A DNA stretch of 52,071 nucleotides from Planoprotostelium fungivorum (Eukaryota; Evosea; Variosea; Cavosteliida; Cavosteliaceae). The stretch lies in NCBI GenBank assembly GCA_003024175.1, contig MDYQ01000197.1:1-52071 (forward strand), given 5' to 3'. Below the pieces are notes generated by a model that saw only the letters and a program-made list of their open reading frames with translations, ran no database searches and was not told the DNA's origin. The translations under genes and the position numbers were made by a program. Below are positions 13,183-49,616 of this stretch, in pieces; positions within the stretch are counted from its first letter, which is position 1, and each line of letters begins with the position of its first letter.

Positions 13183-16100
13183 ATGACGAGATTATCCCAC
13201 GTCAGGTGAGTCGTGATAGTTGTGTTGGGTGGACTGAGATGGGGTAGCTTGGTTCTGATTTGGGTTCTAATCATCGGTCTGTGTTCGATTGTGGAGGGGC
13301 GCAGTCAGCCGAACAATTGTCATTACGAAGAAATACCCTCGACGTTTGATCTGCCCTCTTACCTGGGGTTCAATGATGAATTTCACATTCAGGGAGAATA
13401 CTATGTGAACCTCACCAAGGGCGAGTATAATGGAGAGCATACTATCACATTCAAGCCAAGAGTAGACAGTCTTGGACGTTTCTATGTAGCTCCACACGGT
13501 AATCGGACGATTACCTCGTCATATCTCATTTTCGTCCAGATGCCGACGTCGATCTGTGGCTATATCCAGATGTGTGGACCCCTGGAGCCAACAACCGAGC
13601 TCTGAAGCATTCTCTTTCCAATCTGCACGAAGAAACCATTGAATATCAGTTCACCGGAGGACAGACATATACTCTCCGTCTCAACTTCTTCAAGGCATGG
13701 ATGGGACTTTTCCAGGCCGATGAATGTGAAACCATTCTCTTTGAAGCACAGATGATTCCTCTCCAAACCGCCAAAGATCGCATGAAGAGCCTTCCTACTT
13801 CTCAAGACCACGTGCCGAACGGCCTCAACTTTCAAATGTTGCCTAACGCTTACCACATTGGATACCAGTATGACTCCAGCAACGAACTGAACAACACCAA
13901 CTTGGCCGAAATCCTCCAAATCCGTTCAGACTCCAACTCGGACTACAGCAAGTCCAGAATGGTCAATCAATGGCTCATCCAATTACCATCCAATTATGAT
14001 TCCACATGGCTTCTGGAGGCCTCCGTTGGTGCCGAATTCCTCTATGGAGGATCTTTCGGTCTCTTCATCGCCACTGGAGAATACACACAGTTGGGCAACA
14101 TCGATCTCTCATGTCTGGACCGAGGAAACTGCACCGTGGGCCACAGGAGAAGAATGAACGAACACAGCCTGTCCATCGAGCTCATGTCGGGAAGATCGTA
14201 CACCCTCGTCCTCTTTGATCGCACCGGCCAGAGAAACAACCACACCTCCGGAAAGGCCGTCCCCTTTTCCATGGTCGTCAGCTTGACTCCCAGCAAGAGC
14301 AGCGGCACAGGTTCATCATCATGCAACTCGCCCCTCCTCCCCACCGTCCTCCCCGGTTATTTCGAAGAGCCAAAGGGCTGGTTCCACTACAACGAGAAGG
14401 TCTTACTCAACCTCAGCGTGCCCACCAACACCATATACATCAACGTTCGAGAGAAGGCTTATTTCAGAGTCCACACTTTGGCTCATCGCGTGGACATTGA
14501 TTTGAGGCTGAGAAATGGGACGAGAGAGATCGCCAGCGAGCTCGCGTTCGGATCGAAGGCAGAAGCCATCGCTACCGTCTTAGAGGCAGGTACCTACGAG
14601 CTCAAGATCATCTACTATGGAGTCTACGAGACGAAGCCCTGCGAGACGTTCAGCCTCGAGATCGCCCTCGAGCCTATTTCCGTCTCCGCCGGAGCCAACA
14701 GCCTCACCTGCCCTACCAACAATCTGCCTCAAGCTGATCTGGGATCATTTCCCCGGGCCGACGGACAGAACTTTGTACAGAGAGGAGGTCCTTACTTGTG
14801 GGACTCTGGAGCCATTTGGACCGTTCGAGACATCCACACCATCGCCTTCACCGTCACGAAGGAGATCCACTTCAAGGCCACGCTCGGCTTCAGCTTTGTC
14901 CTCTACGATCTAAATTTGAAGCTGAAGAGCACGACGGCCTCGATCAGCGGCGAGATCCTCGGTGAGCCCACGCGCAACCGTGAGACGATCTCGACAACGC
15001 TCCAGCCCGGAAGCTATCGCCTCACCATCAGTACGAGCCACGCCGGCAGCAGCGTCAACCCTCTCGTCCTCCCTAAATGCGCCGAATTTGACCTCATCGT
15101 GGAAGTCTACAATTCGACCAGCCCCACCTACCAGTACAGTCTCATCCCAACCGATTTACGTATGCCCGGCTATCTCGGCCGTGGAGATTTCGTCCACTTT
15201 GCCGACGAAGTCCTCTTGCCCATCACAAACAGTGGCAGCTGGACCGCCATCACCTACACGACCTTCAACGTCACGAAGAATTCAGTCTTTCGAGTGTGGG
15301 CCGAGCCCCACGACATCGACATCGACTTTGAGTTGAGAGAGAACGGCCTCGTCATCGCAACCAATCTGAACATTGGAACCGAAGAGACGATCATGAAGTA
15401 CCTGACTGCCGGTAAGAGATACGAGCTGAGAACTCATTACTACCGATTCGGAACACCTGGAGCGAATCACAGAGGATGGCACACTGCCAACATGGAGTTG
15501 GCCATCGCACCACAGGTTGACACCCCCGCCGTAGGTGCCGTGTCTTTACCTCCCACCAATTACATCCCCGACTTTGACATGAACAAGTGTCGCACCCAAC
15601 GTGAGTTCGATCGGAACGAAGTAAGAATGACGTCACGATAGCGGAGAAGTGCAAACTCAACCAGACGAGCATCTTCTCTTACAGACAGACTTCCACGGCC
15701 CTGGCTTTTCCCCTGCATTTCAGAGTGACGGGAGGAAGCGTCAGAATCCGCGTCGTCGTTCAGCACGATTTCTTGTACGGAGATCTCTCTATGGAGCTGT
15801 ACGATCGCTCCCGCAGCACAGTCACTCCCATCCACGGACAGAACTACTACAACCGCTACGAGCTCACCCAGTGAGAATTCACACGAGAGTATTCGTTTGA
15901 CACGAACAGGACGCTGAACCCCATCAACGGTAACTACAGCATCATCATCAAAGAGGCCGCCGTCAGTATCTCACCCCGCTGGACTGGCTTCCAGCTCAGC
16001 GTGACCTACGAGTCGACTGAGGTGGTGACCTCCACTTCGACCTGCCCCGCCACATACCTTCCCTACTCCTTGAACAGCCCCGGATACTTGTCCGACTTGT

Positions 16101-19100
16101 CCGCTCAGCAGGTACACTTTGCGAGAAATCTGTTGGTGCCCCCCCTATCTTACTACCGCGACTACATGAAGTTCAACTTGAACAAGGAATCACTCGTATC
16201 CATCGTCGTACCGGAGCATTCCATCGTCGACGTCGACGTTGCCCTTCGCAACGGTACCATGAACAGCCCAGGTGATTCCTACGAGTTTTCTACGACATTT
16301 CTCACACTCTCAGGCTACAACTTTATGTCCCTCACGAGCTACAACGAGGAATCTGCCCACGTCATTCTGAAGCCGGGAACTTACTTTTTAGAGATGAGGT
16401 TCTTCCCTCAACCTGGACGCACCCTGCCCCGCACTGACTGCTTCTACTACCCCGCTCAGATTGCAGTCGTTCCCATGGACATTGTCAGCAAGGTCGAAAA
16501 GCTAAAATCGACCTGTAACCCCGTGAAGGAACCACCCACCTCCCTCACTTCCGTCGTCTACAACGAGAGACACTCTAGAAATCTCAACCAGCCCTTCAAC
16601 AAGGTGATCCCATCGATTTGAATTTTGAATTCTCAATTTCCCGCAGAAAGTCATCTCGTTCACGGTGCCCTCCGTCTCCTTCTTGGAGATCGACATCTTC
16701 TTCAACTTTCCCACCGGTGCCATCAGCATGTCCCTCGCCGGCTCCACTGCCGGCTCCAGCTCCATCTCGGGTGGGAACACGCTCCGTCAGCCCGCCATCA
16801 TGGGTCAGAACCGCCAGACCCTCCACCGCCTCTTGGCCCCGGGCAGCTACAACATCACCCTCCACGACCCCTTCGAGGTGAAGGGCAGGGCTACAGTCAT
16901 CAACGGTTGTTCCGACTACCAGATCTTCTACACGTACACCGCAGCCACCCCCGACGAAGTCTCGGACGACGACAGAAAGTGTCTCTTTGCATCTACCCTC
17001 CCCGCAGATCTGGCCGATGCCAGTGGAGGATCTGCTCCATTCGGAGGCCCACAGGCCGCCGACGGTACCGTTCGGATCTACGGCTCTGATTTCCTCTTGG
17101 ACGAGGGAGAGCATTACATGAGCTTCCAAGTCAAGGAGAAGAGTTACGTCAGGGCCTTCGCTCAGGGCAACCACGAGGAAGATGACGTAGACTTTATCAT
17201 CTACAAGGACAACGTGACGACACCGGCCATCTCATACTCGATGGGTGTGGGTCACATCGAATCGAGCCCGGTGAAGCTGTCCACCCCGGGCAAGTACGTC
17301 TTAGACATCAACGTGTGGGACGTCGGAGAGAAGGATTTGGATTGCCCACTCTTCCACTTTGAATTCGCCCTGAGAACGGAAGCCAAATTGAAGAGTGAGT
17401 TGGCCTGCCCCATTCTGCCCGCCGATCACTTGCCTCCCACGAACATCAACGTCGCGTCTGTCGCTTCAGAAGGTCTAGTGGGTACCTACTACTTGACCAA
17501 GGACGACATCGCCCGCTACACTTCTGGCTACCGCATGAAATATCGCATCACTGTCGTCAATAAGGACAAGGACCGCTTCATCTACGCCGGAGTCCTCTTT
17601 GATTTCCTCGCCAACGATTTCAGGATCAGCATCAGCGATTCGCAGGGTCGTCTCGTGGAGAGTGGAGTCAACAACGGTCTACCCAGGGCCCCCGAGTACA
17701 TCAATTTCGAGAGCTGGCTCTTTGCCCAACTCCTGAAGAATACGACTTACTACTTGGACATCGAGGAGTTCCAACCCTTCCGCTTCGATTTCCCCTCCGT
17801 CTGCCACAAGTTTGAATTTGAATTCTTCAACTTTGATGGAGAAGGTGATCCATCAGAAGCACCGTTCATCGACATGATCTACCCCGAGAGCGGTGAGATC
17901 GTGGAGCCCAACGAGGACCTCTGGGTCTATGTCGACTTCAGCGAGCCGGTGAGTCTGACGTGTCGACGTCGACATGACACGTGACAGGTGGGCACGCCCG
18001 ACAATACGCAGAGGAGGAACCTCCTCAAGTGGGTCAAGGATAACTCGGCTCTCTACTTGAAGCAGTCCAGCTCCACCAGCAACATCCTCCCCGTTGAAGC
18101 AGACATGTGGGAAGACTCTGAATTCACTTACCTCGACGTGCGATTCCAAGCGGCAGACATTGTGCCCGACAGAACCTTCACCATTCACCTCGATGCCTCT
18201 AAATTCAAGGACACGAACGGCGTCAGCTTCGTCAACCCACTCGGCTCGCCCACCTTCTCCACCTCCCCCACAGACTTCTGCAACAACCACGGTAACATGG
18301 TCAACGGTGTCTGTCAGTGTAACGCCGGCTACACCGGAGCCCGGTGTGATCAATGTGCGACGGGCTACCACCAGGAAGGACAAGAGTGCAAGCCAGATGC
18401 CGCCTGCCCCGCCGATTACTGTCACGGACACGGAGAGTGCGTTCCCTTGGACAGCGAGAGGATCTGCTTCTGTAACTACGGCTACGCGGGCAGGACCTGC
18501 GAGGAGTGTGCCTACGGCTTCGAAAAGGACTCGACCACGGGAGAGTGCAAGCTGTTACCACAAGAAGACGAAGAGCCGATCCAATGCGAGCAGAGCATAT
18601 TGCCCACTTCACTCGATGCTTGGGGTTACCTCCTTCCGACGAGAGAGGTGAATGTCTACATCGATGTCTCTGTTGACGTGGACAGGTACACTTGAGCGAA
18701 GACTTTTACCTCGACCACGTCCACGGAGTGCACGAGATGACTTTCTCTCTGGAACGAGAGAGTGTCTTCCGTATCTTGGCGGAACCTCACAAGCTGGACA
18801 TTGACATCTGGCTGTACAAGATTGACGACCAAGGGAACACGGTCTATCTCGACGCACTCTTGTCGTTAGAGGGTGTAGAAGAAGTCATGTACAAGACCTT
18901 GCCCGGTGGAACACCCAACAAACCCGCGAAATATCTGCTGAAATTCCAGTACTTTGATTGGGAGGACGTTTCGGACACGTGTCACTCGGCTTACATCGAA
19001 CTAGCCATCGTTCCTAAAAACAGAGCTCAGGGTATCGCCAACAAGATGGCCGCCGTCTGCACTGGAACCGAATCGAAGCTGCCCACTAACCAAGACAGTG

Positions 19101-22100
19101 AGTCGACGACTTTGACTTTCTCTCTGACTCGTCACAGTCTTTGGAAAGAGCAACCGCTACCCCCGCATCGAGAGTGACATGACACTCAAGCAGAAGGGCG
19201 CCAACTTTATCGTTGCCAAGGGCAGCGGTAAGGCCAATTACGCGGGAAAGATCGATTTTGAAATCGTAACGGCCAATCCGTGGTCCATGGCAACCATCCA
19301 CGCCACGACATCTTCCCAGTTTGCCATCGGCGACGTCGCCCTCTTACTCGAGTCCGGCGACAACGCAGATCACTGCACGACCAAAGGAGGTACGTACATT
19401 ACGTCGCACGGCGTGCCGATCTGACGTGTCCCAGCCGCCGGTGACAATTGCGTCTTGTCCTCCCCCACCTACAACGGACACACCCTCCACCAGAATGTGT
19501 CTCCAGGCAAGTATACCCTGTGGTTCTACGAGCCCGTCACCCAGATCAAGAACATCACTTCTTGTGCCGTGTTCGACTTTGCCATGGAGATCAGTATGAA
19601 CGCTTTCATGGACGATCTCGTCGAATGCGATGGAACAGAGTTACCCTTCTCTTTCAACCAACCTGGATACGTCACAAACGGTTACATGCACGTCGTCGGA
19701 GACTTTTTGGCACAGACGAGATCGGTATCCCTCACGGTGAGCCGTCGTACCGATTCGCACGAAATGTCACGGAAATGTCACGGAAATCTCATTTCATCAG
19801 GTCCCCGCCACCTCTGTCTTCCGCATCGCCGCGACTTCGTGGGTGGAATCCCTCAGCTTCACCATCAAGACCGAATCTGGCTCCGTTCTCAAGACTTCTC
19901 GCACGGCCGATCGCCACCCCGAGATTGTCGTGCAGTTGTTCTCCGGTAAATACACCGTGGAGATTCGCATCTCTCCCACCGATGCGGACTACTGCCCCAT
20001 GATGCGATTGGAAGCTGCTCTCAAGCCACAGAGTGACGTCAAACAAGTCTCCTGCTCCAACTCGGACATTGTCTTGCCCAAGCCCGTTTTCCTCGGTTCT
20101 CTACCCTATGGATTCGGATCGACAGACGGAAAGAGGTAAGTCCCGTCGGTGTCGGTGTTGATTCTGATGTACGCGATAGGTGGAAGGGCCGTATCAACGG
20201 TAACCTCGTGATGGACCCGGTCAACTTGCACTTCACTTCGTCTGTTTTCCTCGCGGCCACCGTTGTATCTGATTTCCTCACTTCCGGCTTCAAGTTGGTC
20301 GTTCGTCCCACCAACGACAGGGTCAACTCGGACGAAGTGTGGGGAGAGCCAGCTTACAACTCTCACGAGATCAACACTTACTTTGCTCCCGGTAATTACA
20401 CGCTACAAGTGCGATCGACCATGCAGCCACAAGATCTGGGACCAAATTACCCCTCGTGCGGTTACTTTGATCTGGACATTGAGATCTTCAGCTTGGGACA
20501 GATCTGGAACTACCCCTGCAACAGATCCGGTGACGTCATACCCAACAGTTTCATGGGAATGCAACACCTCGGAGGTTCCGATCGCTTCACCCACGCCGCC
20601 CACTACCGTGTACCCCCCCTCTCCGACGTATCGTACGTCAGCCGCTCTATCCCCTTCAACGTCTCGCAGAGATCTTTCATTCGAGTCAAGACCGAGCCCC
20701 ACGATGTCGACGTCGACATCTCCTTAGTGGAGTACACTTCAGATGGTAGGACCAACACCATCACCCACGGTGGCTACCTCTTCAACGAAGAAGAGAGCTT
20801 CATCAACGACTCTCTCGTCCCCGGAAAGAGATATGCCGTCGTCATTCAATTCTGGAAGTTCAACGAGATCAAGGACGAGTGCCCCGTATTCGTCATGCAC
20901 ACGGCCATTGCCCCCGTCGCCGATCTAGCTCAAGTCCGTGCGACCTGCCCGGAGAACAAACCGATGGCCAAGGCAGAGAGAACGCTGCACTACTCGTTCG
21001 ATTCGTCTTCACCCGACTCGAACCCCTTCTCCTTCGTGCAGAAGAAGGGAGTCGAAAAGTCGTTCAGCATCGAGATCGAGCCCATGGCTTCCTCCGACAT
21101 CGTCGTGCAGATCCAAAACGATTTCACATCGGCTGATCTGAGCGTGACCCTGGAGAAGCTGAATGCCGATGGAGTCACGGTGAGTGAGCAGTACTACGGC
21201 TTGGACTTTGGATTCGGCGCCACCATCAGACAGTGGGCCATTTCTTCTGGAAAATGGAAGGTGAGCGTTGATCTCCCCATCGATGTGTAGACTGATCGAT
21301 TCAGGTCACCGTGTATCAAACCCAGGCCGCCTTCGATGGCTGCGTCGAGTGGAACCTCCTCTTGGCTTGGAAACCCGCCGACTACAACCACGGTAGAAAA
21401 TCACACCTCACCCTACCGATGAACCTCAACGGTGCGGGCGATCTCGCTTACGATGATTTCGATCACTTTGCCGGGGTCTTTTCTCTGTTCCACAGCGGCC
21501 AGGAGACGATAGAGATGAGTCTGAGGGAGCCCTCTCTCGTTCGCGTGTCGACGGACCAGAACAACGCTCTGTCCGAGAGGGTGAGTTCTCGCAGAAAACT
21601 CGACGAAAACTCAATCGTACAGATCGAAGTGAAAGTGCAGGGAAGATCGAGTGACTACTCTTACTTGGGAGAACACACTGGACGTGTCACTCTCAGCATC
21701 GATCGTCCCGACTTCACCATGGTTGACAAACACGCCGACGTCGGTGTAGAGATTGCCGTCTTCCCGATGTCTTGGATCAATCAGCTCACTTCTTCTTGGC
21801 CCGTGACGAAATGTGAAGACAATCCACAGTGGAAGATCGAACTCGATCCCAACGGACACTACCAGTATGACAAGGACATCTCTCTGCCTTCGACCACGAC
21901 AACTCAGGTCATTCAGAGCCAAGAGTTTACCCTCAAGAAGGAATCTTTCGTTCATGTTTCCATCGGTTTCGATTTCATCAATTCTGATCTGGAGATCGAG
22001 GTGAGATCGTCCGTCTACAACGAGCCACATCTGACTCGATACAGATCCAACAGAAATCGGGAGACTTGTTCCACGGAAAGAACAGCAAGAACCACCACGA

Positions 22101-24480
22101 GTTCCGCCAAGTATTACCCGCCAACACGTACACCCTCATCATCAGGCAGTACAACAACATCGCCACCTCTACCTCTCATCCGAGTCTGTGCAGCAAGTAC
22201 CACTTGAGAGTCTACATCGGTGACGCCAAGGACGCCATCGCCAACGCAGACTGTGCCTCCGCACAGCTCGTCCCTTGGAACTTAAACTTGAACAACCCAT
22301 CACGACAGATGTTCAACGTCTTTGGTGAAAACTTTTTGATGAGAGGTGAGTGCGATCAGTTGAGTGGAGAATGACAACGACGCAGGCGACAGACAGATCA
22401 TGTATGTCAACGTGTCGAGCGATTCCATTCTCTCCCTGTTCACGGACAGGAGGGGAGGCTATGACGACGTCACCTATCACGTGTACAAGACTCACCCTCA
22501 GTATCGAAACAATCCCGAATCTGCCGTATTCACCGCAAATGGACAGACCAGCCGTGATGCCCTGTTCAAGCTGCCTCAGATCTTTGACAAGGTGATGATA
22601 TCTTATGTCTTTGTCATTTCTGATGAGATGAAACAGATGACACAGTACGAAATCGAATTGGTGTACGCCAAGAATAGCCTCTACTCGAAGCCTTGCCCCA
22701 GCTTCGGCATGCAGCTCGTCATCGCTCCCAAGAGCTACGTCGCCCAGTCTGCAGCCTGCCCCACGAAACCCACTGCCATCGGACAACTGAAGAGACAAGT
22801 CGACGTCGGCAACACACCCACCTCCGTCTACTTTGATGGCTCTCTCAACGGTGACTTTGTCACTGCATGGTACTCTCCACACTTCCAGCAGATGATCTAC
22901 AACACTTCGATCAACGTCACGAGACAGACGGATCTGGTTGCTACGGCTATGTACGACGACCTTCTCTCTCACTTTGAGATCGTGCTGTACAGAAACACAT
23001 CGTACGGTGTGTCTCAGTCCATCGCATCGAACAGGAGGATATTTGCACAAGAATCCCACGTCTACAACGCCCAGCACACCTTCTCGTTCTCCCTCTGGCC
23101 AGGAAATTACATCGTAGCCCTCCGTGCCAAGGTTTTGAGTGAGTGGAGCATTTCGTGAAGACATTCGACTGACTCGTGTGCAGGTGCTCACGCTCAATCC
23201 AACGACATGTCCATCCACATGGCCTGCTATCCCTTACTCTACACCCTCCAATTCGTACCCTCTGACGTATCCACTTCTGTTGTGAGAGGTGTGACACCTC
23301 CAACCGCAAAGGAGGTCAACCCGGGTCTACCTCTCTCCTTGGAGATCGATTTCCCTTCCGTACCGAGAGCCGGCAACAGCCCCCTTAGCAGCAACATGAA
23401 CGCCCTGAAGAACATCCTCTACCTCATCCCAGCCAAGGACACGAACAACAACAACAACGCAAAGAGGGAAGCCAATGAAGTGGCCTGCAACAGCATCGAG
23501 TTCGTCTCCCCCGTGACGTACAAGGCCAAATTCCTCACGAACCAGATGCAGCCGGGCATCGCTTACAAGTTGGAATCCAGAAACACACAGGGAGAGATCA
23601 AGACCGACAAGGGTGTGGCCATACAGCTCGTGACGTACCACCGCTACACGGTGGCTGATACCAACTGCAACGGTCACGGCGTCATCTTAGATGGTACCTG
23701 CAGGTGTGAAGAAGGCTACGCTGGAGCCAGCTGCCAGCTCTGCGCCGATGGCTACAAGGAAGAAGGAGGCAAGTGCGTGAAGAACAGTGGATTCTGCCGC
23801 GTAGATTCTTGTGGCTGTAACCCTCTAGTACCCGACTACTGTGTTCCCATCGGAACGTGCAAGGAGGACAACAGCGACAGACACTTCCACTGTGAGTGCC
23901 CCAGAAACTACGCCGGTGACCTGTGAGTTTCATCCTCTTGAACCCTAACACCGACCGTACGCAGTTGCGACCGGTGCGCCAAGGGCTACGACCACTTTGA
24001 ATTGGGATGCACTGCCGGGGGTAGCTGCAAGTGTGACCACTGCGACCGTAAGACCTGCGTCTGTGACGAAGGTTGGGCGGGAGAGCTGTGTGACCGCTGT
24101 GACGACGGCTACTCTGGCTTGGCCTGTGAGATTGGTGGTGAAGCCATCAAGTCCTCTCGCCGCGCCAGAATTGCCGGTGGCCTGTTGGGTGCAATCGTTA
24201 TCTTGGCTACCGCAGGTTTCGTACTGTGGAACAAGTACGGAAAGAACCAGAGAAACGTGAGTGTGAGAGAGAGAGGAAGGAAATGACATCGAGACAGCCT
24301 TACATGGCCGTCGATGCCGACATGGAGAGTGCGGCGGAGATGTCGCTGTTTGACGATGATGATGATCAGGGACATCATCGGTTTGAAGAGGAAGAAGAGA
24401 ACAATGGAGCGGGTAACGGATCGACTCGAAATGAGCCGGAGCCTGAGCCGGAGCAGAAGCTCTTCTCACTGGACGACTGA
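13183..24480 (+). CDS. Giant type I surface protein with PPC-like repeats, Ig-like and EGF domains
   Basis: About 20 exons joined by 38-60-bp introns give roughly 3,490 residues. A 23-bp first exon plus exon two encode a signal peptide (MTRLSHVSLVLIWVL, then IIGLCSIVEG). The ectodomain is a string of beta-rich modules of about 170-200 residues. Their signature is FRVxAEPHDIDIDFELRENG (for example near 13490, 14480, 15300, 16215, 17170, 18780, 20695), usually followed by an AGxYxL-type strand, much like bacterial pre-peptidase C-terminal (PPC) domains. Two Ig-like segments (about 17865-18270, IYPESGEIVEPNEDLW; about 23290-23650) each precede EGF/laminin-type Cys clusters (18280-18560; 23660-24130). 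A single TM (GGLLGAIVILATAGFVLW, near 24175) follows, then an acidic tail ending KLFSLDD. Many N-glycosylation sites occur. It is probably a cell-surface adhesion or recognition protein. No named family is recognised for the whole. Confidence 0.88.
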
Positions 24481-42751: not shown

Positions 42752-43879
42752 TCATCCTCTCGCTGGAGACAGAGGAATCGTCTCGTAGTCCATCTCGTCC
42801 TCTCCTTCCGTGTCGCCTCCTGAACCCGATGTGATGATCACCGAGGGGCTGCTGGGTCCACTTCTCGTGGGGCTACTCCTCGTTGGACTGCTCCTCGTCG
42901 GGCTGGGACCCCTCGTCGGTGAACTGTCCGGGCTGGCTCTCTTTCGCGATGGCATGGACGATGTGTTCGTGTGGGGTGTCTTGATGAGAGACGTGTTGGA
43001 TGTCTGAGGAGAAGATGATGGAGAAGAGTTCGCATCGGGTGTCGATCTGCGGTTGGGATCGAGGAGGGTTGCCAGAACGAAATCGGCCTCGAAGATGTTG
43101 AAGTAGGTGAGGGAAGCCAAGGCAGGTCTTCCAGCTCGGTCGAAGTGAACCACCACGGGTTGTCCGGCGGACTCGCAGAATCCAAGTAGAGCCTTGAACT
43201 CTTTGAGGCAGAAGGTGATGTCTGTCTCCCCCACTTGATACTCATCGAAATCGGCCGCATCTAGAGTCGTCTCGGTTCGTAAGAGTTGGGTGGCTCTTCC
43301 AGCTGTCGTGTCTTCCGAATGAGATCGAAAGCGAAGATGAGTCTTGCCAGTGGAGAGAGTGATCTCCTCGACAGAAGAGTGGAAGTTGGATACCGCTTCT
43401 AGAAGTTTCCTAGGGACACAGACGAGGCGATTAGGACAGGAGTCTTTGTCATAGACTGCACTGACTGGTTGGATCTCTTCGTAAGTGAGTTTGTACAACT
43501 TTTTGACTCCTAAGATTGGTCAAATATGGACGATGTGACATCACTCACCATGCTTGCAATGTAATTCAAAGACGAATCGTTCTTGGATGAGATCTAATCT
43601 CAAGATGCACTTTTCTATGGTATCGTATGCACGGAAGACTGCTTGGCAGGGTTTCAACTTGATTGCGAACTTTCTCTCTTGGTTATCTTCGAGTGAGAGG
43701 TGATCAAAGAAGCCACGGTGAAGATGGAAGGCAAAAAAGGCCACTCTCGAAGAGTTGAGAGTTCGAAGGATGATTCTGTCTTGGTGTGCCTCTATGAACA
43801 TGTCCTCTCCGATCTTCCCTAGGCATTGGACCGTCTTTGCGAATAGTTTTGTATATCCCGTAGAGAGTGTGCACTCCAT
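42752..43879 (-). CDS. RAD9: RAD9 checkpoint clamp subunit
   Basis: Two exons give about 362 residues. The first exon encodes MECTLSTGYTKLFAKTVQ, then RIILRTLNSSRVAFFAFHLH, the Rad9 version of the PCNA-like N-terminal fold. The second begins VKKLYKLTYEEIQPV and continues through NRLVCVPRKLLEAVSNFHSS and DITFCLKEFKALLGFCESA, the family's C-terminal PCNA-like half. Rad9 forms the 9-1-1 clamp with Rad1 and Hus1, loaded at damaged DNA to activate ATR-type signalling. The C-terminal tail (about 85 residues) is Ser/Pro/Thr-rich with SPTR repeats (RGPSPTRSSPTRSS) and an acidic end (GEDEMDYETIPLSP), typical of a checkpoint-phosphorylated tail. The ATG at 43879 lies only 20 bp from the divergent ATG at 43900. 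Confidence 0.95.
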
Positions 43880-45133: not shown

Positions 45134-48100
45134 ATGAGCGTCAGGAACGAACACGTTCACCTATTGATCGCTTGCTATGTATCACTGCTGTTAGTTCAGT
45201 GTGAGGCTACTGACCTCGCTGTGACCATGCAGCAGATGTGGAAGACATTGGGAGGTAAGAGCAGCGACTGGATTCTGTATCTCAGGTAAACTGCAGGTCC
45301 TTCCCCATATTGGTCCGGAACCGATGTGAGTGGATGTGAATGTGATGGATCGGAACTTCTAATGTCTAAAGATCTGCAATGCCGACGATTTCATCGGTGT
45401 TACTTGCAACGGCTTTACCGGACCGACGTCTATTAATCTCTCCTCAATCCAACTCAGTGGTCAGATCCCATCCAACATCGGCGTGCTAACGAACCTCACG
45501 TCTCTCATCATCAGTAATACCCACTTGAACGGCTCCATCCCATCATCCATCGGCGATCTTTCCTCTTTGAACGTCCTTCAACTCTACAACCTCTCTCTAT
45601 CTGGAGTCATTCCACCATCCATCGGCAACTTGACGTCCCTCACCTCCCTCTCTCTCAGTTACAATTTCATCGAAGGAAACATCACTTCTGCTCTCTCGCA
45701 GCTTTCATTACTGACGGAGCTCTCCCTCGATCACAACCGCCTCAGCGGCATCATCCCGAATGACCTCGTGAACCTCCGATCCCTCGAATACTTTCACCTC
45801 GAAGACAATCTCATCGGTGGCCCTCTCCCGAGTTGGCTGGGTGAACTGACTCAGCTGATCGACGTCAACTTGGTCAACAACCGATTGACCGGACCCATCC
45901 CTCCTTCCATCGGGAATCTGACCCAGCTGGTTCACCTCAGTCTGAGTCAGAATCAACTCAACGGCTCATTACCTCCACAGATGGCCCGGCTCACCCGTCT
46001 CGCTCATCTCTTCATCGGACAGAACAACATCACCGGGCCCTTCCCTTCTTTCCTTCAGAACCTGACCCTGCTGGAGGACGTCTACCTTGGTGATAACTTC
46101 CTCACCGGTCAGATTCCAGCGGGGGTCATCAACTTGCCCCTCCTCAGACTCTTCGACGTCAGCTCTAACTTCTTAGGGGGTGCCGTGAGTGCGAGGGATT
46201 CCAACCTCAACGCCCTGTCGAATTTATTCTTGGGATCTAATTCTTTCACTTCCGTGGGGTACATTGCAGTCACCGCCGTGTGTGACCTCTCTGACAACCG
46301 TCTCCCCTGCTATCCTCCTCTCAAGGTGCCTTCTATCTGCAGTTTGAATTATCTCCCCTGTGGTTCAACCGACATACTGGGGCTGTACAATAATATGACC
46401 ACGTTGACCACCGGAGATGCAGAGGTGAGAGGAGTTGTAGAAGGAGAAGACCTGAACGAGAGACAGGTGATATTCAAGAGTGGTGCGGTTGATCCCATTC
46501 AGGTGAGAATAACCCGGTGTATCGATCTCACGTTGTCGTTGTAGACGGTGGAAGTGATATCGGCCGTCGCTTTGGCTCTGTCACGCAACACGTCTGCGTC
46601 CTTTGAGTACAAGACGAGCGAGATTTCGCTGACATTTCAGACGTACAACTTGACTCTCAACGACACGATCCACGGTTCGATCACCGACAGCAATATCTCC
46701 GTCATCCTTCCCTTATCTACCATCATCACAGGACAGGGTGAGCATCAACTAAACGTACGTGTGTCACACATCTGACGGGTTCAGTTCATCTGTTATTATC
46801 TTCCCTCTCTTTCAACCCATTTGCATCCATCGTTGACCAGATCATGTGAATCTCCATGCACCGTAATCATTCTTCTCACCGTGTTGACCGAGTTGTAGAT
46901 ACAGTCCCGTCGTGGGAGTGAGTGTCTACAGTAACGGTCGAAAAGTGCAAGTGAGTGGAGTGAGAGAAGGCATCAACATTTCCATGGGAACCATCGGCGT
47001 CCTCCCCCCAGGACACAGTGAGTTTGCCTCGTTGACATACATCTCATCTCATCAGAGCCGATCTGTCAATATTGGAACGAAACAGAATCCTCGTGGTCGA
47101 GAGAGGGATGTAATATCGTTGTAGACGGTGACGTCATCATCTGTCAGAGCACCCACTTGACCAACTTCTCCATCGGTGTCTCACGCATAGAGACTCCCAC
47201 CACCATCCGGCTGATCGATGCCACCTCAGTGGATGAGTCACCACAAGGAAACAAGAAACTCATCATCATCATCATCGCCAGCTGTGCTGGTGGAGTGATG
47301 CTGCTGCTCCTCTTGACTGTCATCGTCTACCTCAGCCGGAGAAGAGTGAGTGAAGGATCATCGCATGGGCTGACAAGCGAAGGCCCCATCAGAGATTCCC
47401 ATCGGGCTGGAGAAAGAAGAGAAGAATGGAGGAACGCTCGAATGGATGGAGAAGATTCACGATGGAGAATATTCTCAAGTGTGGAGGGCCATCCACAACG
47501 GTACAACGACGGTAGCTGCAAAGAAGGTGCAAGAGAAAGACGTGCGAAAGTTGATGCAGGAGGCCTTGAGATTGAAGGTGAATCGTTTCTATTTGTGATG
47601 GGAAATAACAGAGCTCAGTCGTTTCATCATCCAAAGATCGTCTTATACTTGGGGCAGAATCTATCAGGTGAGAACAATGGATTAAAATGAACGTCTTTGT
47701 TTTCACCTGATTACACGAGACTGAACAAATTCAGAGAGATGGATGGCTATTGAGTGGATGCACAACGGAAGTCTCTTCTCTTACAGCCAATCTCATCCAA
47801 TACAGAGACACGTACAGACCATGTGAGAGCTGTTTGTTTTGGATGAGGGTCTGAGTTTTCGACAGAATGACGCAAGTGGTGCAGGGGATGTTGTACTTAT
47901 CAGACCAAAACATTGTGCACACTCAACTGACACCCCACCATGTGAGCAACGACATCATCTCATCCCCGTTGCATCATCTCATCATCTCATCTCATCTCGT
48001 TTCATCTCATTCTGATATGCTTCAGATCCTATTGCGAGTCACTGATGACACTGTCGAGGTAAAAGTGTCAGGACTGAGCGAGAGCGTTGCAGACGGTGCT

Positions 48101-48517
48101 AAACACAACAAGAAACCAGAAGAACACACAGTGAGGACGAGTTGCGCGTTGAGTTTGGAGTGAGAGATGGACAGGCGCCAGAAGTGATTCGATACGGCAG
48201 ACAATACATCCAATCAGATGTATGGAGTTTTGGTCTTGTATTGACATTCATCATGAATGGAGGTCCACACGAACAGGTGAGGCATCGTCGCACCATCGCT
48301 CTCACTTCATCTGAGCGAGGTATAGAAGGAAAAAATGAGGGATTTGACTGTGAAAGTATTGATACACGACTGCACTGAGGAAGAGATGACCAGCCGAACC
48401 ACGTTTGCACAGATTGCACAGAAGCTGAAAGGGAGAGAGGAATGTAAGGAAAGAGAGTCATCCATCATCGTGCAAGAGACACACGACAATGAAGATCCTT
48501 ACTCTGTGATACATTGA
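45134..48517 (+). CDS. LRR receptor with GAIN/GPS domain, TM segment and intracellular pseudokinase
   Basis: About 14 exons give roughly 925 residues. A signal peptide (HLLIACYVSLLLVQCEA) and a Cys cap precede eight to nine plant-type LRRs such as GSIPSSIGDLSSLNVLQLYN and GPIPPSIGNLTQLVHLSLSQ (about 45450-46330). A beta-rich region then ends in a GPS motif, PICQYWNETESSWSREGCN, then IICQSTHLTNFSIGV (about 47050-47185). HLT is the autoproteolysis tripeptide used by adhesion GPCRs and polycystins. One TM segment (about 47258-47335) leads to a TKL-like kinase fold: GEYSQVWRA, VAAKKVQEKD, HHPKIVLYLGQNL and APEVIRYGRQYIQSDVWSFG. The catalytic HRD is HTQ (IVHTQLTPHHI) and DFG is SGL, so phosphotransfer is unlikely. 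It ends EDPYSVIH. This is probably a surface receptor with a possibly cleaved ectodomain and a scaffold-type kinase domain. Confidence 0.88.
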
Positions 48518-49522
48518 AGACCACACAGATGACATTGAAATAAAACATATGATGCCTCGGCTTCGTACACCAAACTCGTCGAATTGATCAACTGGGTCAT
48601 TCTATTGAAGTGTCACGAGGGATTTGTTGTGGATGTACATCTTGGGCGGCTGCTGACTTGATAGATAGAATACAAAATGAAAAAAGAAAATGGCTGTGTA
48701 AAATAGGTCGATGCATTGTTGAGGGGACAAAAGATTCGAGTGCAGATAATAATGCACAAGGTGGTGGATGATACAGAATGAATCGGATCAGGTGCCAGAT
48801 CGGCAAGATTGAGAATCCACCTCCCTGACCATTGAATAGTGTTCGTTCAGAGGGAATCGATTCTCTAATCATCATTTGCCCCTACTGACGAGTTGAGGGC
48901 AGTCTTCTATCTGGAGGATAGGTGAATCTACGGCTAAAGACGAGAGTGATGGGTGTAGGAGATGATTAGACTGCATCTGCGACGATATAAGCAGAGCTGA
49001 TCCCTTCTACCTTCTTAACTAAGGCAGTCCTGCAATTACATTAAGAAATACAAAAACAGGTGATCGTCGCGTTCGATATAGACGATGTGATCATCAATTG
49101 TGGCTTAGAACCCGAGAGATTTCGATAATTGGCGCTTCCGCGATTGCAATTCACCACGAGACGAACAACATCAACAGTGAGCTCGTCCATCTCCGTCATT
49201 TCTTATCCATGAAAAAACAGCAAACAGAGATCGCTTTTGGCCCCTCCAGTCTCCCACTCTCAATCGCACCGCACCCCTGTGAAGCTCCCTCTCCAGATCA
49301 AGAGGGAGATGATCGATGGAGGATGGAGGAGGAGAGGAGGATCGTCATACACATTGGTATTTGGAGAAGATGAGATGTCTCGAATGAAATATGAATTGTA
49401 GGACAGATGTGACTGTGTGTGTCATCTCCGTCAGGAGAATCGGTCTCTCGACCTGGCCGAATTTGGCGCCAAAATTGAAAATTTTTGGGTCTTGCAGCGC
49501 GTTTTGAGAGTGCACATCGGGC
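48518..49522. other. Gene-poor region
   Basis: About 1 kb with no convincing gene follows the LRR receptor. AATAAAACA at 48539 is a plausible poly(A) signal for that gene. A short frame from the Met at 49210 (KKQQTEIAFGPS..., 54 codons) has no supporting motif. Confidence 0.4.
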
Positions 49523-49616
49523 GCTCCAATGGCGGAGTGGTAAAGCCCAGCCTCTTGTTTGAGTGTCTGGCCTTTGCGCTCTCGGGTTCAAGTCCGGCGG
49601 AAAACCCATCTTTTTT
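49523..49616 (+). other. Degenerate tRNA-like element with pol III boxes
   Basis: An A-box-like TGGCGGAGTGG (49530-49540) and a B-box GGTTCAAGTCC (49585-49595) are spaced 44 bp apart, as in class II tRNAs with long variable arms. A run of six T (49611-49616) follows as a pol III terminator. A short D-stem (GGC/GCC) can be drawn, but the acceptor stem does not pair and the T-stem is poor. It is more likely a tRNA-derived SINE or a decayed tRNA than a working tRNA gene. Confidence 0.45.

Follow-up and report, generated by a model that had tools for sequence, protein, structure and literature searches.

The window, a stretch of 52,071 nucleotides (nt) of Planoprotostelium fungivorum DNA (contig MDYQ01000197.1 of assembly GCA_003024175.1), carries at 45134-48517 a gene for a leucine-rich repeat (LRR) receptor in which a G protein-coupled receptor (GPCR) proteolysis site, GPS, is followed by one transmembrane helix (TM) and a kinase fold that has lost catalytic residues. 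The gene is one of a large family in this genome, in which the order of domains recurs, the cleavage site is conserved, the kinase fold is constrained despite the loss of catalytic residues, and the tethered-agonist signature of seven-transmembrane (7TM) receptors is lost. With a probability that we put at roughly 0.55, the gene belongs to a family of LRR receptors that are gated by a GAIN domain and regulate partner kinases without being catalytic themselves.

The receptor gene and its paralogues

We built the gene model from a three-frame reading of 45134-48517 and the fitting of GT..AG introns. It forms an unbroken frame of 916 amino acids (aa) from the ATG to the stop, with introns of 37 to 84 nt (Table 1), and its two ends are those proposed in an earlier note on this DNA. 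A frame break in the last exon had raised the suspicion of a pseudogene, and was explained by a 44-nt intron (48131-48174) that is also present in paralogues. In Pfam searches the protein matched PK_Tyr_Ser-Thr (PF07714) and GPS (PF01825; cut-off 22.5 bits) with the scores given in Table 1, as well as Pkinase (86.5 bits) and LRR_8 (69.1 bits). The order GPS, TM, kinase is common to the paralogues, whose kinase introns lie at mostly identical places and phases. A chance occurrence of the GPS is excluded by this recurring order together with the E-value of the match (1.2e-10). The earlier note had described LRRs, a GPS in a GAIN-like region, one TM and a pseudokinase, and had suggested profile searches for GPS and kinase; this layout was borne out by those searches and by the paralogues.

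The genome of the window (36.86 Mb in 471 contigs) was searched with PF01825. The search returned 176 first-look candidates, of which 150 were scored, and all 150 exceeded the cut-off, which sets a lower bound of 150 on the number of GPS motifs in this genome. The earlier note had rightly recognized an unusual GPS-TM-kinase receptor, which is however one of at least 150 GPS genes rather than a lone oddity. The 150 motifs are spread over 85 contigs; 59 of them lie less than 10 kb from another, and contig C351 alone holds 10. Among the 147 readable GPS strings 130 are distinct, and some copies may therefore be recent duplicates or come from duplicate contigs. The 149 other places were retrieved, four of which (L014, L023, L056 and L110) end early at contig ends.

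A single strongly hydrophobic segment was found between GPS and kinase in each of 11 spliced models, those of the window gene and 10 paralogues. The GPS-to-kinase spacing, measured at 118 loci, ranges from 213 to 430 nt and therefore leaves room for one or a few TMs but not for seven. The helix contains a stretch of small residues, often CCAxGG, with Gly-Gly in 9 of the 11 models, and this stretch is a possible helix-pairing face. On the N-terminal side, LRRs are present in 9 of the 10 long paralogue models. A genome search with LRRNT_2 gave two matches only and was of no use for counting.

Cleavage site and cysteines of the GPS

The GPS of the window gene reads CQYWNETESSWSREGCNIVVDGDVIICQSTHL/TNFSIG, the slash marking the predicted cut. 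It contains C-x-x-W, W..GC and HLT and has Ser in place of the fourth Cys, as the earlier note had read. The cleavage triplet H[LF]T is kept in all 150 GPS, three of them across an intron. In the 147 that were read in one exon it is HLT in 146 cases and HFT in one, with Thr at P1' and Phe at P3' throughout. In L146, L148 and L149 an intron, read by eye, appears to separate the His from LTNF, so that the cleavage site would exist only after splicing.

We compared the cysteines of the same 147 GPS. C4 is absent from 34 of them, the window gene included, and HLT is kept in all 34, so that the Ser of the window gene does not read as a sign of a damaged GPS. C2 is absent from 17, and C4 is missing from each of these too; 113 GPS have both, 17 have C2 only, none has C4 only and 17 have neither. 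The association is strong (Fisher p = 3e-13, or p = 2e-11 on the 130 distinct strings, relatedness being ignored in both). The C2-C4 pair is disulphide-bonded in latrophilin, and the pattern is in line with a C2-C4 disulphide, C4 usually being lost before C2. The window gene would then represent the intermediate step.

In adhesion GPCRs, the positions of the tethered agonist are tied to the 7TM pocket. Their consensus is TxFAVLM (PMC12716839; papers are cited here by PMC number for the parts of their text that were available). In the 147 GPS, T1 and F3 of this consensus are kept throughout, P6' is Gly in 109 and P7' is mixed. The residues predicted to serve the fold and the cut are kept, and those tied to the 7TM pocket are not.

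Alternatively, the GPS may persist as a structural or maturation relic, cleavage playing no part in signalling and the LRR part working in a plant-like manner, by ligand-induced pairing. Some adhesion GPCRs function without cleavage, and the departure of P6' and P7' from the consensus would suit such a relic. Nevertheless, the invariant P1' Thr and the triplet kept in every GPS seem stricter than structure alone needs, and the 17 genes devoid of both C2 and C4 still keep HLT. We regard a relic as rather unlikely.

The region upstream of the GPS was characterized with a profile of about 182 aa that ends at the GPS, made by aligning the window protein and 10 paralogues. Against PDB it matched ADGRF1 (2.1e-6) and ADGRL3 (3e-6), both over the GPS and little more, as well as ADGRG2 (7e-5, profile positions 64-181), ADGRG3 (117-180) and ADGRG1 (0.0011, 102-181). 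These matches support the presence of GAIN subdomain B upstream of the GPS, most of the score coming from the GPS itself. In Pfam searches of the 11 members, GPS alone was found in all, and other matches were weak and limited to one or two members.

A kinase fold with lost catalytic residues

The window protein has the layout of an LRR receptor kinase, with an LRR ectodomain, one TM and a cytoplasmic kinase fold, and it lacks the catalytic residues of such an enzyme. The catalytic-loop Asp and the DFG Asp are both lost, with HTQ at the HRD position and GLS at the DFG position, as expected from the earlier note, which had reported both motifs as missing; the VAIK Lys is kept. By its residues, the domain is a predicted pseudokinase. 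Its nearest PDB matches are Lck and Src (best E-value 1.2e-21, phmmer against PDB). The kinase fold of the earlier note therefore stands, but its description as TKL-like is loosely supported, the best matches being Src-family tyrosine kinases.

Motifs were read across the family with a spliced profile aligner written for this analysis, whose motif columns came from window-seeded profiles and could be misplaced in distant members. The kinase was clearly aligned at 121 of the 150 loci, 73 in group A, to which the window gene belongs, 14 in group B, 15 in group C and 19 others; weaker alignments, with scores of 100-299, were obtained at 17 loci. A segment of the HLTSFSLQ group scored 28.3 bits against PF07714 (cut-off 23.1). 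Five loci (L067, L068, L087, L093 and L111) have a GPS without recognizable kinase in the approximately 1.4 kb retrieved, and are either other architectures or broken genes.

Among the clearly aligned kinases, the catalytic-loop Asp is absent from 110 of 120 readable sequences and kept in 10, and the DFG Asp is absent from 109 of 120 and kept in 11. In group A, neither is found (0/73 and 0/72, respectively). The ATP-site Lys of VAIK is kept in 108 of 117 and the alphaC-Glu in 118 of 121, both together in 105 of 118, and the glycine loops are degenerate. When all 150 loci were considered with no score cut, the HRD loop was readable in 140, with Arg in none and Asp in 12; the DFG Asp was present in 21 of 132, and both Asps in 6 of 130, of which L042 and L043 are weak alignments. 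Wrong splicing is an unlikely cause of the missing residues, given that 110 of 120 kinases lack the catalytic-loop Asp. As most readable GPS receptors adjoin a kinase domain without catalytic residues, their mode of signalling is probably binding and not phosphorylation.

Twelve kinases without GPS served as controls; they were picked for strong Pfam matches and are hence biased to canonical ones. Both Asps are kept in 11 of them, and L163 keeps neither. The motifs of L166-L169 and L171 were read by eye, regular expressions having missed HLD or DLG. The pattern HRDxKxxN, which does not cover every kinase type, had 156 matches genome-wide compared with 3 in reverse. None of the first 100 listed of these 156 lies less than 2.5 kb downstream of a GPS; these 100 sites reach contig C310, and 108 of the 150 GPS are on contigs numbered up to C310.

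One paralogue, L134 (C234:100133-100252, minus strand), keeps both Asps, as HCD and DYG, scores 151.5 bits against PF07714 and is likely an active member. Such a locus, the ten catalytic-loop Asps and the frequent retention of the VAIK Lys and alphaC-Glu would be expected if the fold retained an unorthodox catalytic activity. The lack of both Asps throughout the group of the window gene and the degenerate glycine loops argue against that possibility, which we find very unlikely.

The constraint on the fold was estimated from substitution rates. In group A (73 genes), the ratio of nonsynonymous to synonymous rates, dN/dS, has a median of 0.227, with all 76 pairs below 0.4; the pairs have dS of 0.1-1.0 and more than 150 codons, and they share genes and are not independent. 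The ratios indicate that the kinase fold is under purifying selection despite its lost catalytic residues. They also bear on the idea that the gene is a pseudogene or an artefact of the gene model. An in-frame TAA occurs within the GPS stretch of L011. Frameshifts were marked by the aligner in the kinases of L002, L016, L071, L101, L128, L113 and L142 and, for 5 of the 10 long models (L001, L004, L005, L008 and L009), in the linker between LRR and GAIN; some of these frameshifts will be missed introns, and some may be real. For the window gene that idea is already contradicted by the complete frame over 14 exons, the kinase dN/dS of about 0.23 and the kinase introns, most of which paralogues share in place and phase, making it barely tenable.

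We built a FastTree phylogeny of 122 GPS kinases (the other 28 of the 150 aligned over too short a stretch or too weakly to be included) and 6 of 8 controls, with one control as the root. The 122 GPS kinases group together (support, 0.90), and group A forms a cluster of 75 tips with L071, L101 and L128 (support, 0.999). On this tree, the state of the catalytic-loop Asp requires at least 9 changes by parsimony, or 13 losses if it was never regained. This suggests repeated decay of catalysis, which would already have been gone when the largest radiation took place. Neither a viral nor a prokaryotic origin was retained: profile A1 gave 23 pattern stretches in viral contigs and 35 in prokaryotic genome contigs, none of which was confirmed as a relative.

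The LRR part was compared in 6 close pairs. The LRR frame of L003/L015 could not be used, and of the remaining five pairs two cover only 21 codons. The pooled ratio in the five usable pairs is 0.446, with 81 of the 135 amino-acid changes coming from L044/L125; in the other four it is about 0.15-0.33, near the kinase values of those pairs (0.15-0.21). The proposal that LRRs evolve at twice the kinase rate was rejected, as the pooled value stems from this single divergent pair. L044/L157 and L125/L158 are neighbouring paralogues on contig C3 with close kinases (dS 0.197) and upstream DNA 0.677 identical. The combination suggests an exchange of ectodomain, or fast change, between L044 and L125.

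Proposed mechanism and relation to known receptors

In the mechanism that we propose, the GAIN domain would cut itself at HL/T during maturation, and the two halves would stay together as a non-covalent two-piece receptor. The kinase fold would be retained as a protein-binding, allosteric module and not as an enzyme. Ligand binding to the LRR part, or pull on it, would loosen or remove the N-terminal piece, alter the assembly of the TM/pseudokinase piece and thereby switch a partner, for which an active kinase is the simplest candidate. We infer cleavage, release or shedding, the partner, the sensed signal and signalling from the biology of adhesion GPCRs and pseudokinases, including the ectodomain shedding that, as put forward in the earlier note, would signal to a scaffold kinase. 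The joint retention of Lys and alphaC-Glu is consistent with a fold of active-like shape whose role would be to bind a partner and switch it, as in the EFR/BAK1 pair.

Candidate partners may be encoded at eight places, found among the part of the listed places that was compared. At each of them LRR_8 precedes a PF07714 match by 0.9-4 kb and no listed GPS lies in the interval, each pair being assumed to be one gene. Those on C143 and C168 seem to be duplicates of each other. The same eight places would also be in line with GPS receptors that serve as decoys or buffers, competing with active LRR kinases for a ligand or a partner, and dead kinases suit a dominant-negative role. The more than 100 copies, the constrained intracellular fold and the conserved cleavage site nevertheless exceed the needs of a decoy, and we hold this role to be quite unlikely.

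Several observations weigh against a family of uniformly GAIN-gated, non-catalytic LRR receptors. A listed LRR_8 place was found less than 4 kb upstream of 38 of the 150 GPS, a lower bound, since 150 of 1179 LRR_8 candidates were scored and 105 listed places entered the comparison with GPS. L003 shows no open reading frame with an LRR motif upstream of its GPS, and its alignment to the window protein starts at aa 308; its ectodomain may differ from the others. GAIN subdomain A was not detected, the profile match spanning subdomain B only and no Pfam GAIN match being obtained in the 11 members. Predicted ligand-facing LRR positions showed no excess change, with a pooled ratio of 0.448 compared with 0.441 elsewhere, and hence no hint of diversifying selection. 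At 12 of the 150 loci the kinase score is below 100, with nothing kinase-like at 5. Both catalytic Asps are present in 4 of 119 clearly aligned kinases (L106, L108, L134 and L147), so that non-catalysis does not appear to be universal among GPS kinases.

The window family resembles adhesion GPCRs such as ADGRF1, ADGRL3 and ADGRG2 in its GPS, the GAIN subdomain B profile match, the HL/T site and the large ectodomain. It differs from them in having one TM after the GPS in the window and 10 paralogue models instead of a 7TM domain, a kinase fold inside the cell, and P6' and P7' that are not kept. Polycystin-1 and the sea urchin REJ proteins likewise carry a GPS outside adhesion GPCRs. Polycystin-1 has 11 TMs after it, unlike the single TM of the window and paralogue models, and some REJ proteins have one; neither is known to have the LRR-to-kinase layout of the window family. 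Plant LRR receptor kinases that act without catalysis, such as EFR with BAK1, share the plant-type LRRs, the single TM and the cytoplasmic kinase fold, whereas the window family has GAIN/GPS between LRR and TM, and its catalytic Asps are mostly absent. In that plant pair, a non-catalytic fold is reported to bind and switch its partner (PMC11259431), and similar non-catalytic signalling is plausible by analogy here.

Amoebozoa do have LRR receptor-like kinases, most of which fall outside the plant subfamilies (PMC13091385), and an LRR kinase as such would therefore not be new. In Dictyostelium, 29 kinase domains, or 11%, are predicted inactive (PMC1420674). Receptors joined to kinase-like domains are found as GPCR-TKL/K fusions in choanoflagellates and as 7TM-kinase fusions in choanoflagellates, oomycetes and amoebozoans; these are 7TM receptors, for which GAIN is not named in the available parts of PMC12716839. 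According to the same source, GAIN predates Holozoa and occurs there in other, non-7TM genes, whose function is unstated, and the GAIN-7TM union is holozoan. The window family provides a concrete case of a non-7TM GAIN, with many gene copies in which it is joined to a single TM and a pseudokinase. No GAIN was reported in family 2 GPCRs of the amoebozoans surveyed, as far as the available text goes (PMC10445921); GAIN on a kinase-like receptor would fall outside such searches.

The combination of GAIN/GPS, single TM and kinase is not mentioned in the available parts of PMC4758236, PMC3268121, PMC2394772 and PMC13197933, nor was it described in the titles or abstract starts of the best-ranked literature; a search for 'GAIN domain' together with 'pseudokinase' found no paper in the collection searched. 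It is tempting to view these receptors as a separate class, in which well over 100 GAIN receptors cleave themselves and signal through dead kinases, nearly all those read at length having an LRR ectodomain; we propose this tentatively, at slightly less than even odds. If true, the self-cleaving module would work without 7TM or tethered-agonist pocket, through a single TM and a pseudokinase, and the organism would possess a plant-like repertoire of non-catalytic cell-surface receptors. With its natural variants, with and without C2 and C4 and with and without catalytic residues, the family could serve to address two questions: can cleavage of a GAIN domain gate receptors that have no 7TM tethered agonist, and how does a receptor family grow once catalysis is lost?

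Table 1. Position and basis of the features of the receptor gene in the window
Feature	Position	Strand	Basis or remark
Whole gene	45134..48517	+	14 exons; spliced model with complete frame; GT..AG introns, those of the kinase part recurring in paralogues
Exons 1-7	45134-45254, 45297-45325, 45372-46502, 46545-46737, 46785-46845, 46899-47017, 47056-47345	+	
Exons 8-14	47383-47577, 47619-47667, 47735-47822, 47866-47941, 48026-48130, 48175-48276, 48326-48517	+	
Predicted signal peptide, ~aa 1-24	45134..45205	+	Hydrophobic N-terminus
Leucine-rich repeats	45417..46340	+	Pfam LRR_8 (4 stretches), LRR_1, LRR_4; genome search place C144:45636-45815
GAIN region, split by introns; subdomain B supported	46455..47180	+	Profile of the region from 11 paralogues matches adhesion-GPCR GAIN in PDB
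GPS motif, aa 553-591	47058..47174	+	PF01825, 47.6 bits (genome search), 42.2 bits (protein)
Predicted cleavage triplet His-Leu/Thr	47154..47162	+	Bond between 47159 and 47160; from sequence
Single transmembrane helix, ~aa 620-642	47259..47327	+	Hydropathy
Kinase fold, exons 8-14, approximate ends	47440..48460	+	PF07714, 102.6 bits, aa 668-863; PDB matches Lck/Src
HRD position, His-Thr-Gln	47918..47926	+	Sequence, profile alignment
DFG position, Gly-Leu-Ser	48071..48079	+	Sequence, profile alignment

Elsewhere in the window, a tRNA-like stretch was seen by eye at 49521-49605 (plus strand); ARAGORN with the bacterial code called no tRNA in the window. A series of long open reading frames occupies 13572-23926 (plus strand), two of them with EGF stretches of the laminin/teneurin type; the 689-aa frame at 13572 had no Pfam match. 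Adjoining the receptor gene, two open reading frames at 42752-43879 (minus strand) match successive parts of Rad9, with 78.0 and 130.2 bits, and probably represent a Rad9 gene with an intron.

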